Assembly: GCA_013697635.1 (NCBI GenBank)
Contig: JACCWM010000210.1
Coordinates: forward strand, 1 to 50,009
Direction: 5' to 3'
Length of the DNA stretch: 50,009 nt
Source of the DNA: Lujinxingiaceae bacterium
Lineage (GTDB): Bacteria; Myxococcota_A; Bradymonadia; Bradymonadales; Bradymonadaceae
Part shown: positions 29,363-50,009 of the stretch, one piece after another
Layout: every line of letters starts with the position of its first letter
Numbering within the stretch: the first letter of the stretch is position 1
Notes under the pieces: generated by a model
What the model saw: the letters and a program-made list of their open reading frames with translations, nothing else
Database searches by the model: none
Told to the model about the DNA's origin: nothing
Translations under genes and position numbers: made by a program

Positions 29363-29463
29363 GTGCGGCTCCTCAACCCTTTAGGATAGCTCGTCATTGC
29401 AGTGGATTTGGTCGATCTCCAATGGACGACAAACTACCCCGGGCGAGCGTTGTCCTGCAAGCC

Positions 29464-29712
29464 GATCACGTTCACGATTACGATCACGATCACGTTCACG
29501 GAGCCGATCACGATCACGTTCACGGAGCCGATCACGATCACGTGCACGGAGCCGATCACGATCACGTGCACGGAGCCGATCACGATCACGATCACGTTCA
29601 CGGATCGCGACCCTGATCGTGATCGCGACCGTGATCGTGACCGTGATCGCGACCGTGATCGAGACCGCGACCGTGATCGCGACCGTGATCGTGATCGCGA
29701 CCGTGATCGTCA
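29464..29712. repeat. GATC-dense inverted low-complexity block (24-bp units, then hexamer-type units)
   Basis: From 29501 to 29572 there are three 24-bp units beginning GAGCCGATCACGATCACG, followed at 29573 by a 30-bp variant with one extra GATCAC; a partial unit precedes at 29471. From 29603 to 29712 the units change to GACCGTGATCGCGACC-type, which read as reverse complement of the left half. I count 22 GATC sites. Both halves could anneal to a long imperfect hairpin or cruciform. Because the units are multiples of 3, all frames stay open (His/Asp-rich on plus, Arg/Asp-rich on both). No start with a ribosome binding site was found, so I do not call a gene. The block fills the 347-base gap between dinB and the 614-residue gene. 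Confidence 0.85.
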
Positions 29713-30774
29713 CCTTTTTAGCGGCAGCTCGAGCTGCTGCGGCCCCTCGTCGTCCTCGGATTCGAGACGAACGCCAACGCCCAGCAAGCGCACGGGTCGC
29801 TTTCCGCGGTCAAAGGCGCTCTCCAAAAGGCGGGCATAGTTGGTGATCGTGGGCTCTTTGATCTCACGTCGCTCGAGCGTGGTCTGTTGAAAGTCGTCGA
29901 ACTTGACCTTGACGAAGATGCCGCGAATCGCCGCCGCATGCTGGTTGCGGCGCAGCCGTCGCTCCAGCGACTCGAGCAGCGGGGGTAGCGCCTGGATGCA
30001 GGCGCCGAGATCGGGCAGATCGTGTGGGTATGTGTTCTCGACGCTGACGCTCTTGGCCTCGCGTTCGGTGCGCACGGGGCGCTCGTCGATGCCGCGGCAA
30101 AGCTCGTAGAGGCGCGGTGCCCAGTTGCCAAACTCGCGGGCAAGCTGCTCGAGCGAGCGCTTTTGGAGATCGCGGCAGGTGTGCAGGCCCAGGGCCTTCA
30201 TGCGCTGCTGGGTGACGGGTCCGACGCCGGGGATGCGGGCCACGGGCAGCGGCGCGATGAAGGCATCGATCTCGTGGGGGGCGACGACCTGGATGCCGTC
30301 GGGCTTGTTGACGTCGCTTGCGACCTTGGCCAAGAACTTGTTGGAGGCCACACCGGCCGACGCCGTCAGGCCGGTCTGCTCGAAGATCAGCCGGCGAATC
30401 TCGTTGGCGATAAGCGTCGCGCTGCCCTGGAAATCCTCGCTTCCGGTGACGTCGAGAAAGGCCTCGTCGAGCGAGAGCGGCTCGATGACTTGGGAGAAGC
30501 GCGCGAAGATCTCGCGGATCGTCTGGCTGGCCTCGCGGTATTTGGTGATGTTGGGCGGCAGAATCGTCAGCTGCGGGCAAAGGCGCATCGCACGCGCCGA
30601 GGCCATCGCCGAGCGCACGCCGAAGACGCGCGCGGGGTAGTTGGCCGTGGCGATCACGCCGCGCCGCTCGGGGTGGCCACCCACGGCCAGCGGGACATCG
30701 CGAAGCGCGGGGTTGTCGCGCATCTCGATCGCTGCATAAAAGCAGTCCATGTCGACGTGGATGATTTTGCGCAT
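29710..30774 (-). CDS. dinB: DNA polymerase IV (Y-family translesion polymerase)
   Basis: The 354-residue length equals the family (E. coli 351). Motifs include IIHVDMDCFYAAIE (metal-binding Asp, steric-gate region), YPARVFGVRSAM, the catalytic SLDEAFLDVTGS, GVASNKFLAKVASD and the helix-hairpin-helix RIPGVGPVT. The C-terminus QLELPLKR resembles a beta-clamp-binding motif (QLxLPL). ATG 30774 was chosen; the open frame upstream to 30990 reads through the repeat array. It is the only gene on the minus strand between the two repeat blocks. No LexA box was recognised. Confidence 0.96.
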   Translation of the reverse strand: MRKIIHVDMDCFYAAIEMRDNPALRDVPLAVGGHPERRGVIATANYPARVFGVRSAMASARAMRLCPQLTILPPNITKYREASQTIREIFARFSQVIEPLSLDEAFLDVTGSEDFQGSATLIANEIRRLIFEQTGLTASAGVASNKFLAKVASDVNKPDGIQVVAPHEIDAFIAPLPVARIPGVGPVTQQRMKALGLHTCRDLQKRSLEQLAREFGNWAPRLYELCRGIDERPVRTEREAKSVSVENTYPHDLPDLGACIQALPPLLESLERRLRRNQHAAAIRGIFVKVKFDDFQQTTLERREIKEPTITNYARLLESAFDRGKRPVRLLGVGVRLESEDDEGPQQLELPLKR

Positions 30775-30870
30775 GGGGTGAAGTGCTCGGTGGGGCCAAA
30801 ACGCCAGGTGCCGGCGGCGATAGTAAACCGACAGGGGCCTACAGACGAGTGCGAAGGGCGTTCGCAGAGC

Positions 30871-31113
30871 GTGCGCACGCCTCGAACCACAGTTTTTGGA
30901 GTTCGCACGAGGTGCGGGCGTCGATCGCGTTTGGTTTTGGCGTGCGCACGACGTGCGGGCGTCGCTCGCAAAAGTTTTTGACGCGCGCACAGCGTGTGGG
31001 CGCCGCTCAGGAAAGGTTTTGGCGTGCGCACAACGTGTGGGCGCCGCTCAGGAAAGGTTTTGGCGTGCGCACGTCGTGCGCACGTCAAAAACTGTGGTTC
31101 GAGGCGTGCGCAC
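30871..31113. repeat. 28-bp perfect inverted repeat bracketing the tandem array
   Basis: The left arm at 30871-30898 (begins GTGCGCACGCCTCGAACC) has an exact reverse complement at 31086-31113. The 187 bases between hold the 41-bp tandem array and a second inverted repeat (TTTTGGCGTGCGCAC at about 31058 and GTGCGCACGTCAAAA at about 31076). The palindrome GTGCGCAC recurs throughout. The element sits between the divergent dinB and the 259-residue gene. Confidence 0.9.
30892..31055. repeat. Tandem array, four copies of a 41-bp unit
   Basis: Units occupy 30892-30932, 30933-30973, 30974-31014 and 31015-31055, and a fifth, partial copy starts at 31056. Copies 3 and 4 are nearly identical (GGTTTTGGCGTGCGCAC ... 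GCGCCGCTCAGGAAA); copies 1 and 2 have diverged. A 41-base period is not a multiple of 3, and there are no spacers, so it is neither coding nor CRISPR. The rest of the 519-base gap between dinB and the next gene (31114-31293) shows no further feature. Confidence 0.9.
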
Positions 31114-31293
31114 GTCGTGCGCGCGCATTTCCCAAAATTTCGCCTGGGGCTTGCGCCGTGGGCAACCACGTCTTACAGTGTGCTCATTCCAACCGGTGTC
31201 CTGGGGGGATGTATAAATGCCCAGGACTTTTTTGAAACAGCGATGTTGTGCACAGCGTGCCCGATCTCGCCCTGCGCGAAAGGCAAGGACACC

Positions 31294-32073
31294 ATGTCAG
31301 AACTTACCAAATCCGTGGTCAACCGCATCAAGAACTCCGAGACGGTCGTCAGCTCGGGCAAGAACCACGGCCCCGAGGTGGGCGCCAGGGTCGCGGCCAA
31401 GTTCCAAGACGTCGGCTTCGGTGACGTCGACGCGGCCACAATCAACCGCGTCGTCGCGGGCTGCATGGCCGTGCTCACGCGCGCGACCGAAAACCTGCAC
31501 GCCCGCGAGCAGGACCACGCCTCCGAGCTTGGCAACGACGGGCCCAAACGCGACGAGCGTGACGAGGCGATCAACGAGCTTGCCTCGCGCCTGGTCAACG
31601 TGCGCCGCCTGCTGCGAAATTTCAGCACGCCAAGCATCGTCGCGAGCCTGGGCCTGGCCAAGCCCGTGCCGCGTACGCCCGATCGCCTGGTCAAGTACGC
31701 AGGCTTCGCCGTCAAACAGCTTCGTGAAAAGAACGTGACGATCCGCCAGGCCGGCGTGACCGTTCGCACCGTCGACATCGCCGTCGATCTCGAGATGCCC
31801 ATGGAGCGTTTGCGCGAAGCGCTCGAGGAGCTCACCGACGACGCGCGCCAAAATCAGCTCGCCAAGGAGGCGCGCGACGCCGCCCTGGAGGCCTGGAACC
31901 TCGATTACAGCGCATGCGCCTCGATTCTGGCCCACTTCTTTCGCCTGGCCGATCGCCCCGCGCTCGCCCGGCGCGTGCGCCCCACGCGCCGGCGCAGCAC
32001 CGGCGAGGTTACGATCGAGGAGGAGCTCGACGCCGGGGCCGCAAACGAGAACGACGAGGAGCTCGAGGCCTAA
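31294..32073 (+). CDS. Unrecognised 259-residue cytoplasmic protein
   Basis: No family is recognised. The protein is highly charged and helical: an N-terminal KSVVNRIKNSE segment, an acidic region around LHAREQDHASELG, then RDEAINELASRLVNVRRLLRN, which could be a coiled coil. A basic stretch (RRVRPTRRRSTGEV) and a strongly acidic C-terminus (EEELDAGAANENDEELEA) close it. No signal peptide is visible. ATG 31294 has AAGGA upstream; in-frame starts further up (for example 31242) read into the repeat region. It is divergent from dinB across the 41-bp array, so the array may lie in its promoter region. Confidence 0.75.
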   Translation: MSELTKSVVNRIKNSETVVSSGKNHGPEVGARVAAKFQDVGFGDVDAATINRVVAGCMAVLTRATENLHAREQDHASELGNDGPKRDERDEAINELASRLVNVRRLLRNFSTPSIVASLGLAKPVPRTPDRLVKYAGFAVKQLREKNVTIRQAGVTVRTVDIAVDLEMPMERLREALEELTDDARQNQLAKEARDAALEAWNLDYSACASILAHFFRLADRPALARRVRPTRRRSTGEVTIEEELDAGAANENDEELEA

Positions 32074-48778: not shown

Positions 48779-50009
48779 TCAGAAGTACATCGAAAAGTTC
48801 AGACCGAGCGACTCGGACTTCGACGCCAGGCTTGGCGAACTGCCGTTGCTCGTCAAGCCGTAGTGGTTGAACAGGTAGCGCGCGCTGACGGCATAATCAC
48901 CAAAGCGCAGATTGGCGCCAAGCCCCAGGCGCAGCGCGCCGACGAGCTCTGCCTCACCCATCGAGGCGCCATTGAGCCTGTAGCCGCCCACGCCGGCCAT
49001 CGCGTAGGGCTCGAACATGCCAAACGACGGCTGAAGCCTCAGGTCCGTGCTCAAACCCATGACCGAAACCTCCCGGTTGACCGAGGCCGAGTCCAGCGAA
49101 TAGCCGCCGCCGTTGAAGCCGAGCTCGACGCCCAGGAGCTTACCCTTGAGGCCCAGACCCAGGTTGAGCTCGGTGCCGCTGAGCGTCGAGGTGGCGACGT
49201 TGCGGTTCGCAAAACCACCCATGCCCATGCCCAGCGTCAAATACGCATCGAGTGGAGCGCTGGCCTGAGCGGTCGACTCGCCATGATGATGGTGAACGTT
49301 GTTGGTCGTATGACTCGATGATGTGCGCCCGGGCGTGACCGTGTTGGTATGCGTGTGTGTGTTGGTATGCGTATTGGTATTGGTCGTGGTACGCACGCGC
49401 CGCGTTCGCGTCGGCTCAGCGGCCTGTGTCGGCGGCGTTTGACGCGGCGTAGGAGCGTTGGCGCGAGTCGGAGTCGGGGCCGGCGCCTCTGTGGGTGTCG
49501 GTCGGGGCTCTGGGGTGGCAACGGGAGCAGGAGCGGGACGGCGCTCCGGTCGCGCGTTGGGATTGCGCTCTCGATCGGGTGTGGGGTTGATCGCCTGACC
49601 CCGAGTGTCGGCTTTCTCGGCCTTCTCGGGCTTGTTGGCGAGGCCGCGCTGGCGATTGTCGTTGTCGGCCTTCTCGGGTTTGTTGGAGCGCTCAGGATTA
49701 GCGTTGTTCGCCCGGCCCTGGTCTTGGTTGCGACCCTGATTGAGCCCAGCGTTGCCTCGATTGGGGTTGGCCTCTTTGTCGACGGCGCGACGATCCAGGT
49801 ACTGCGTCTGCTCACGATTGCGCAGCTCCTCCTGACGCTCGCGCGCCTTCTCGCTGCCCTTGTCCGTGTTGTCGGCCCTCTCCCGCGTCTTGCCCTGATT
49901 TTCTGGCTGAGTTCTCTCTTTGCCCTGATTCTCCTTGCCCTGATTCTCCTTGCCCTGATTCTCCTTGCCCTGATTCTCCTTGCCCTGATTCTCCTTGCCC
50001 TGATTCTCC
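48779..50009 (-). CDS. Outer-membrane-like protein with a long repetitive N-terminal region, cut by the right window edge
   Basis: The frame is open without a stop from the window edge to 48779, so the gene is longer than the apparent GTG start at 49396 suggests. Reading from the edge: ENQGK pentapeptide repeats, then a charged Arg/Glu/Asn/Gln-rich region, then a Pro/Thr/Arg-rich stretch, then a Thr/His/Asn tract (TNTHTNTHTHTNT) with HHHH. It ends in about 165 residues of a small beta-barrel (DAYLTLGMGMGGFANR ... SLGLNFSMYF) with a terminal Phe typical of outer-membrane proteins. The repeats are unlikely inside the barrel and probably lie in the periplasm or outside. The N-terminus and signal peptide are beyond the window. 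Function is unknown. Confidence 0.78.
   Translation of the reverse strand, partial: ENQGKENQGKENQGKENQGKENQGKENQGKERTQPENQGKTRERADNTDKGSEKARERQEELRNREQTQYLDRRAVDKEANPNRGNAGLNQGRNQDQGRANNANPERSNKPEKADNDNRQRGLANKPEKAEKADTRGQAINPTPDRERNPNARPERRPAPAPVATPEPRPTPTEAPAPTPTRANAPTPRQTPPTQAAEPTRTRRVRTTTNTNTHTNTHTHTNTVTPGRTSSSHTTNNVHHHHGESTAQASAPLDAYLTLGMGMGGFANRNVATSTLSGTELNLGLGLKGKLLGVELGFNGGGYSLDSASVNREVSVMGLSTDLRLQPSFGMFEPYAMAGVGGYRLNGASMGEAELVGALRLGLGANLRFGDYAVSARYLFNHYGLTSNGSSPSLASKSESLGLNFSMYF
49920..50009. repeat. Six perfect copies of a 15-bp tandem repeat at the window edge
   Basis: TTGCCCTGATTCTCC is repeated exactly from 49920 to 50009 and may continue past the edge. It codes ENQGK on the minus strand within the outer-membrane-like gene. 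Perfect identity of the copies suggests recent slippage and possible length variation. Confidence 0.95.

Follow-up and report, generated by a model that had tools for sequence, protein, structure and literature searches.

Helically phased repeat arrays beside a predicted coiled-coil gene in Myxococcota: a chromosomal locus that looks like part of an undescribed module

Plasmid replication iterons are direct repeats spaced at whole helical turns, with a pitch of about two turns, and are located beside the gene of their binding protein. In plasmid RA3, the alpha-helical coiled-coil rod KfrA is encoded beside the repeated sites of its operator OK, three repeats pointing in one direction and two in the other, with five 9-bp repeats overlapping the -35 and -10 elements (PMC7783346). 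This plasmid-borne protein features an N-terminal HTH head, regulates its own expression and plays an accessory role in DNA maintenance (PMC7783346). The sopC site of plasmid F, which is bound by the neighbouring gene's product SopB, comprises ten functional 43-bp repeats with a palindromic site (PMC7205306). TIGR-Tas loci combine one protein with an up- or downstream array of about 5-15 units, some of them palindromic, in stem-loop arrays that are processed into RNAs of about 36 nt (PMC12045711).

The repeat considered here lies in a window of 50,009 nucleotides (the whole stretch of DNA that was analysed) from a Lujinxingiaceae bacterium and is one of a widespread set of helically phased arrays beside an uncharacterised coiled-coil gene, which looks like an undescribed module of a protein and its DNA sites. 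In its working principle the locus comes closest to KfrA, as a predicted coiled-coil rod is encoded beside iterated sites in both orientations here as well. The locus differs from KfrA by its 41-bp phased dyads, its chromosomal location and an array found on either side of the gene; moreover, no KfrA_N or HTH was found by Pfam (E<=0.01), and two structural models show only long helices. Like sopC, the locus features an array of dyad sites near a 43-bp pitch, here 41-42 bp with about half of the arrays being palindromic, whereas a ParB family match and a linked ParA or ParB gene, as expected from sopABC/ParABS, are lacking and several modules of different sequence occur per chromosome. Compared to iterons, there is no Rep family match, the location is chromosomal and the pitch amounts to four turns. 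In TIGR-Tas as well as in the present loci, the array sequence is constant within and variable between loci. In contrast to TIGR-Tas, two repeats alternating with variable spacers of about 9 nt are not present here, neighbouring full units of many arrays being 95-100% identical, and an orientation switch as well as a constant helical pitch occur. The Nop domain gave no Pfam match, and no Nop protein was found among the fold matches listed, which does not exclude one. As to CRISPR, no cas genes occur as conserved neighbours and PADLOC gave no match (E<=0.05, four members). The many similar copies of a MITE or dispersed repeat were not found for the single-copy unit of the window. Owing to the differences from KfrA, sopC and TIGR-Tas, the module is filed under none of these systems. 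It is rated as categorically new, since its protein family and array rule match no described one found in the open-access literature, a description elsewhere being possible. If binding were proven, the module could also count as a variant of iterated-operator or centromere systems.

In the window, TRF and a box search revealed an array at 30858-31125 (no strand assigned) consisting of seven GC-rich boxes of 22 bp at an exact 41-bp pitch. These comprise the degenerate boxes 1 (30858-30879, GCGTTCGCAGAGCGTGCGCACG) and 2 (30899-30920, GAGTTCGCACGAGGTGCGGGCG), box 3 (30940-30961, GCGTGCGCACGACGTGCGGGCG), box 4 (30981-31002, ACGCGCGCACAGCGTGTGGGCG), box 5 (31022-31043, GCGTGCGCACAACGTGTGGGCG), box 6 with a near-perfect dyad (31063-31084, GCGTGCGCACGTCGTGCGCACG) and box 7 (31104-31125, GCGTGCGCACGTCGTGCGCGCG), all steps between box starts being 41 bp. 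TRF itself reported a 41-bp period at 30894-31080 with 4.6 copies, 82% matches, 0% indels and a score of 213. The 41-bp tandem array of the first-pass annotation is real, and it is also longer and more regular than stated there. The boxes alternate with linkers of 19 bp, of which linkers 1-5 carry GTTTTG or GTTTTTG at their 3' end and linker 6 starts with TCAAAAACTG; the box phase is unbroken through this switch of linker orientation. The flipping of the linker while the boxes keep their phase gives rise to an exact 29-bp inverted repeat. Its left arm (30870-30898, plus strand) is formed by the end of box 1 and linker 1 including GTTTTTG, and its right arm (31086-31114, minus strand), at which the linker orientation switches, by linker 6 (CAAAAACTG, opposite orientation) and the start of box 7. 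The exactness ascribed earlier to this repeat was confirmed, its length of 28 bp was one too short; likewise, an inner inverted repeat taken for an imperfect one of 15 bp is present and features an exact stretch of 17 bp (30941-30957 and 31068-31084). The recurrence of the 8-bp palindrome GTGCGCAC was borne out with six copies within the array versus three in the remainder of the window. The linkers of units 4 and 5 are identical. As RNA, the array region shows a folding z-score of -10.4 versus shuffles, and such strong folding is expected of any comparable inverted repeat. Rfam matches to microRNA precursor families lay far below the gathering scores, only reflected the hairpin shape and were dismissed. 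A DNA search revealed no other match of the 41-bp unit in its own 6.2-Mb genome or in 39 relatives.

The left neighbour of the array was correctly recognised as dinB (DNA polymerase IV, Y family; 29710-30774, minus strand; PF00817, E 6e-51). The array had been framed as filling a divergent promoter region of an error-prone polymerase gene, which is misleading, as none of 15 loci with dinB orthologues in the window's taxonomic family carries a 41- or 42-bp array upstream. Thus, dinB was rejected as the partner of the array and is a bystander outside the module. The partner is the other neighbour, a gene on the plus strand (31294-32073 including the stop codon, coding 31294-32070) for an all-helical protein of 259 aa with an acidic tail. 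Its putative promoter (TTGCGC - 17 bp - TACAGT, 31151-31179, plus strand) is located immediately past the last box, and a comparable promoter-like layout (TTGYGC, 17 bp, TAnnnT) can be read at several paralogues; a strict sigma-70 scan did not report the candidate.

No family fitting the 259-aa protein was found in Pfam, NCBIfam, PHROG or PADLOC, with no match in Pfam at E<=0.01 for this protein and none in PADLOC at E<=0.05 for four family members. Weak matches to HspR (E 0.0025) and PQLLE (E 0.011) were far under the cut-offs and were set aside. The window protein and a member with a downstream array share a succession of long helices in their AlphaFold models (pLDDT 92.8 and 87.9). Foldseek searches against the PDB and a viral library gave no significant match (best E 0.03), VIA fold matches with Z up to 8.9 were in the range common for helical bundles, and a DNA-binding motif was recognised neither by sequence nor by fold. 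The gene family is under purifying selection, with dN/dS values of 0.09-0.36 between close pairs.

The protein family was found in 29 of 282 genomes of the phylum Myxococcota, where it is multicopy and patchy. One of these genomes is that of Lujinxingia vulgaris, a bradymonabacterium, whose order has been re-classified into Myxococcota (PMC11509652). The window's genome features four full members and one fragment, and 11 members occur in one relative. The fragment, a C-terminal piece 66% identical to the window protein and without an array (L116; G000 C32:12206-12376), is a broken recent duplicate. Searches of plasmid, phage and viral-contig collections for the protein found no match. The modules sit at unrelated positions without shared neighbours, and the family genes have no conserved neighbours or operon partners except the array. 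Most module loci are syntenic in three genomes of the same genus and were thus inherited in place.

For 61 family loci, an array was called in 240-bp windows if the top repeat lag was 40-43 bp at z>=5. Such a lag was found in 25 of 61 upstream flanks versus 15 of 675 background segments (Fisher p 8e-20) and in 11 of 58 downstream flanks (p 9e-7), these p-values overstating independence due to the relatedness of the loci. By this strict criterion, an adjacent array occurs on either side at 36 of the 61 loci; when weaker arrays and 82-84-bp harmonics were included by inspection, the number rose to about 48, and about a dozen loci revealed no array by these tests. As the relatedness inflates the p-values, held-out loci, fetched later with the profile of the other clade, were checked. 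Ten of 13 testable ones carry an array of 41, 42, 43, 83 or 84 bp, which lies downstream of the gene in nine cases and upstream in one. No lag-41 array was found in 800 kb from two genomes, and the lag-42 arrays there lay mostly in coding sequence, apart from two weak non-coding ones; one non-coding 43-bp case occurred in 400 kb of a third genome. The array thus looks like a belonging of the family of the 259-aa gene, being neither a local accident nor a part of dinB.

B-DNA has a helical repeat of about 10.4 bp per turn. The pooled autocorrelation of identity and A/T over 46 arrays revealed peaks only at 41-42 and 82-84 bp, and several arrays favour a lag of 83 over 82 or 84, which puts the mean pitch at 41.5 bp or four B-DNA turns (4 x 10.4 bp). 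Inside the units, no clear phasing of A/T with a period of 10 or 21 bp was seen. The unit sequences are unrelated between modules, as illustrated by boxes from different modules (GCGTCGAATGCTTCGACGCG, CGTCCGGAGGCTTCCGGAGG, GATTTGCACTGTGCAACTCG), and in many arrays neighbouring full units share 95-100% identity. A significant palindromic element of 18-20 bp per unit is featured by 22 of the 46 arrays versus 2.3 expected. In arrays of the Lujinxingia group, the linkers switch orientation at a constant pitch, from TTGAAAC to GTTTCAA, and such a flip was found in the array of the window as well as in L098, L108, L201, L202 and L204. Moreover, at orthologous loci of three same-genus genomes, promoter and gene are kept and the array is turned over, with box and pitch being retained. 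What is conserved is the pitch; the sequence, the side of the gene and the orientation of the linkers vary.

In the window's family, most members have the array upstream and others have it directly past the stop codon, including the paralogues on C178 and C54 of the window's genome; it is found downstream of the gene at many loci of other families. In the protein tree, the array side is clustered but shows several switches, of which well-supported branches require at least three. As the array can precede or follow the gene, it does not simply represent a promoter. In Lujinxingia, at least four further 42-bp arrays contain the box of two modules, lack a family gene within about 3.5 kb and have a conserved end sequence in common with the module arrays. 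Four of these gene-less arrays share a common box (L201, L202, L204 and L205 on G018 C86, C102, C98 and C96); one gene-less array starts right after recF and another is located beside a glutathione-peroxidase-like gene. The array terminus GGCGTCGAAGCGCATGAGGGCTGGGGGATCGGGG is highly conserved in one genus (L249-L257, L202), and near-copies of it (<=2 mismatches) occur at few sites per genome, nearly all of them array ends. In the window's genome, a copy of the C178 array was observed on C202 (L210, about 1210-1580; G000 C202:33200-33600), which apparently is a decayed module with a mere trace of the gene's 3' end. Stand-alone arrays fit a trans-acting protein or the decay of modules, and judged from the sequences a trans-acting binder is plausible in Lujinxingia.

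Among the three readings offered by the first-pass annotation, a protein-binding array is best favoured by the comparative evidence, with the binding itself being inferred. The array and the gene at 31294-32073 probably constitute a two-part module in which a rod-shaped protein or some partner assembles on dyad sites located on one face of the DNA. Such a module would combine a helical, rod-like protein of about 260 residues with a cognate array of dyad boxes every 41-42 bp, and four B-DNA turns per unit would place all boxes on the same face of the helix. As a dimer or oligomer, the protein may bind the boxes and form a nucleoprotein rod along one face of the DNA. This would enable autoregulation if the array borders on the promoter of the gene, as in the window; an array lying downstream, or alone as in Lujinxingia, might serve as a bridging or anchoring site. 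With the switch in linker orientation, the complex would consist of two halves that mirror each other. Fixed whole turns are needed by a protein assembling on one face and not by an RNA, which argues for a module of a protein with its own dyad array. It is most likely the rod-like protein itself that does the binding; within this model, the chief alternative is an unlinked partner protein that would bind the boxes in its place. Against this model, the absence of a recognised DNA-binding motif is the weakest link, and orphan arrays exist without the gene alongside. For a more general reading the chances seem about even: Myxococcota would harbour an undescribed class of self-contained chromosomal protein-DNA modules, each pairing a helical-rod protein with its own four-turn dyad array of unconstrained sequence, whose phased rods regulate, bridge or anchor loci, with several orthogonal systems per genome (about 11 members at most).

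If the protein binds the array, these loci offer a large natural set of mutually distinct protein/array pairs, several per genome. A sequence that drifts while the helical pitch stays would then be a clean model for filaments reading the phase of DNA as well as for the divergence of binding specificity following duplication, and the loci would supply orthogonal arrays for locus tagging. In addition, a widespread and wholly unannotated protein family gains a testable function.

The main rival, though unlikely, is an enhancer-like region bound by a transcription factor or nucleoid-associated protein, with the helical protein being merely the regulated product. This would suit the arrays of the window's taxonomic family, which stop just short of the promoter-like TTGYGC-17-TAnnnT, as well as a helical protein without a recognisable DNA-binding domain and the Lujinxingia arrays lacking a family gene. 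However, an array located downstream in several lineages and at two paralogues of the same genome cannot be an ordinary promoter region, and the box sequence is module-specific, so that a single host factor would need to read all of them.

There is also only a slight chance that the protein binds a structured or guide RNA transcribed from the array, as in TIGR-Tas or another RNA-array system. The layout resembles TIGR loci in its one helical protein, 5-15 units on either side and palindromes, and in a sequence constant per locus and different between loci (PMC12045711); the strong RNA folding of the window array would agree as well. Nevertheless, Pfam revealed neither a Nop domain nor another RNA-binding family, the near-identity of neighbouring units leaves no variable spacers, and with linkers flipping inside the arrays a single transcript would hold sense and antisense units. 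Besides, a 41-42-bp pitch across unrelated sequences suits the phasing of a DNA helix and not a processed RNA.

Equally improbable is a mobile element, with transposition carrying the whole module or just the array. It would explain the multicopy, patchy family at positions without common neighbours, the conserved end sequence in the arrays of one genus and, in the window's genome, the decayed C202 array and C32 fragment. Still, the modules are not linked to a transposase or recombinase, most of their loci are syntenic among the three same-genus genomes, array copies inside one genome differ strongly in sequence and the plasmid, phage and viral-contig collections gave no match. The small non-autonomous element considered in the first-pass annotation is likewise unsupported, its unit being unique in the genome and no target-site duplication having been noticed.

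A functionless product of local slippage or template switching, or a hotspot of these, deserves hardly any credence, since despite a unit unique in its genome and absent from 39 relatives (DNA search), and despite signs of recent duplication and template-switch correction in the identical linkers of units 4 and 5 and the perfect 29-bp repeat, the pitch is found again in many genomes beside one gene family, in arrays of unrelated sequence, and is rare elsewhere. As a full explanation, slippage is refuted by this gene linkage; it may describe the multiplication of units, and a structure-prone hotspot, as proposed earlier, may account for the perfection of the 29-bp repeat, though not for the phylum-wide pitch. 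It had been suggested to regard the array as slippage if its unit was absent elsewhere and unconserved. Taken literally, the DNA search gave this result, yet the answer is wrong, as spacing and gene linkage are conserved and the sequence is not; a scan relying on similarity only would discard such an array as slippage.

Further repeats were observed at family loci and in the window. One family member (L134, G187 C1:3370053) is preceded by an array of 33 bp with 98% identity instead of 41 or 42 bp, representing either three turns in place of four or a coding repeat. Repeats of 61 bp (lag 61), about six helical turns, are located just downstream of the family genes at L141, L142 and L117. In the window, tandem repeats of 24 bp and 18/30 bp (CGATCACGTTCACGGAGC..., GATCGCGACCGTGATCGT) occur at 29463-29710 between dinB and the next gene, and a perfect 15-bp tandem repeat at 49915-50009 runs off the contig end.
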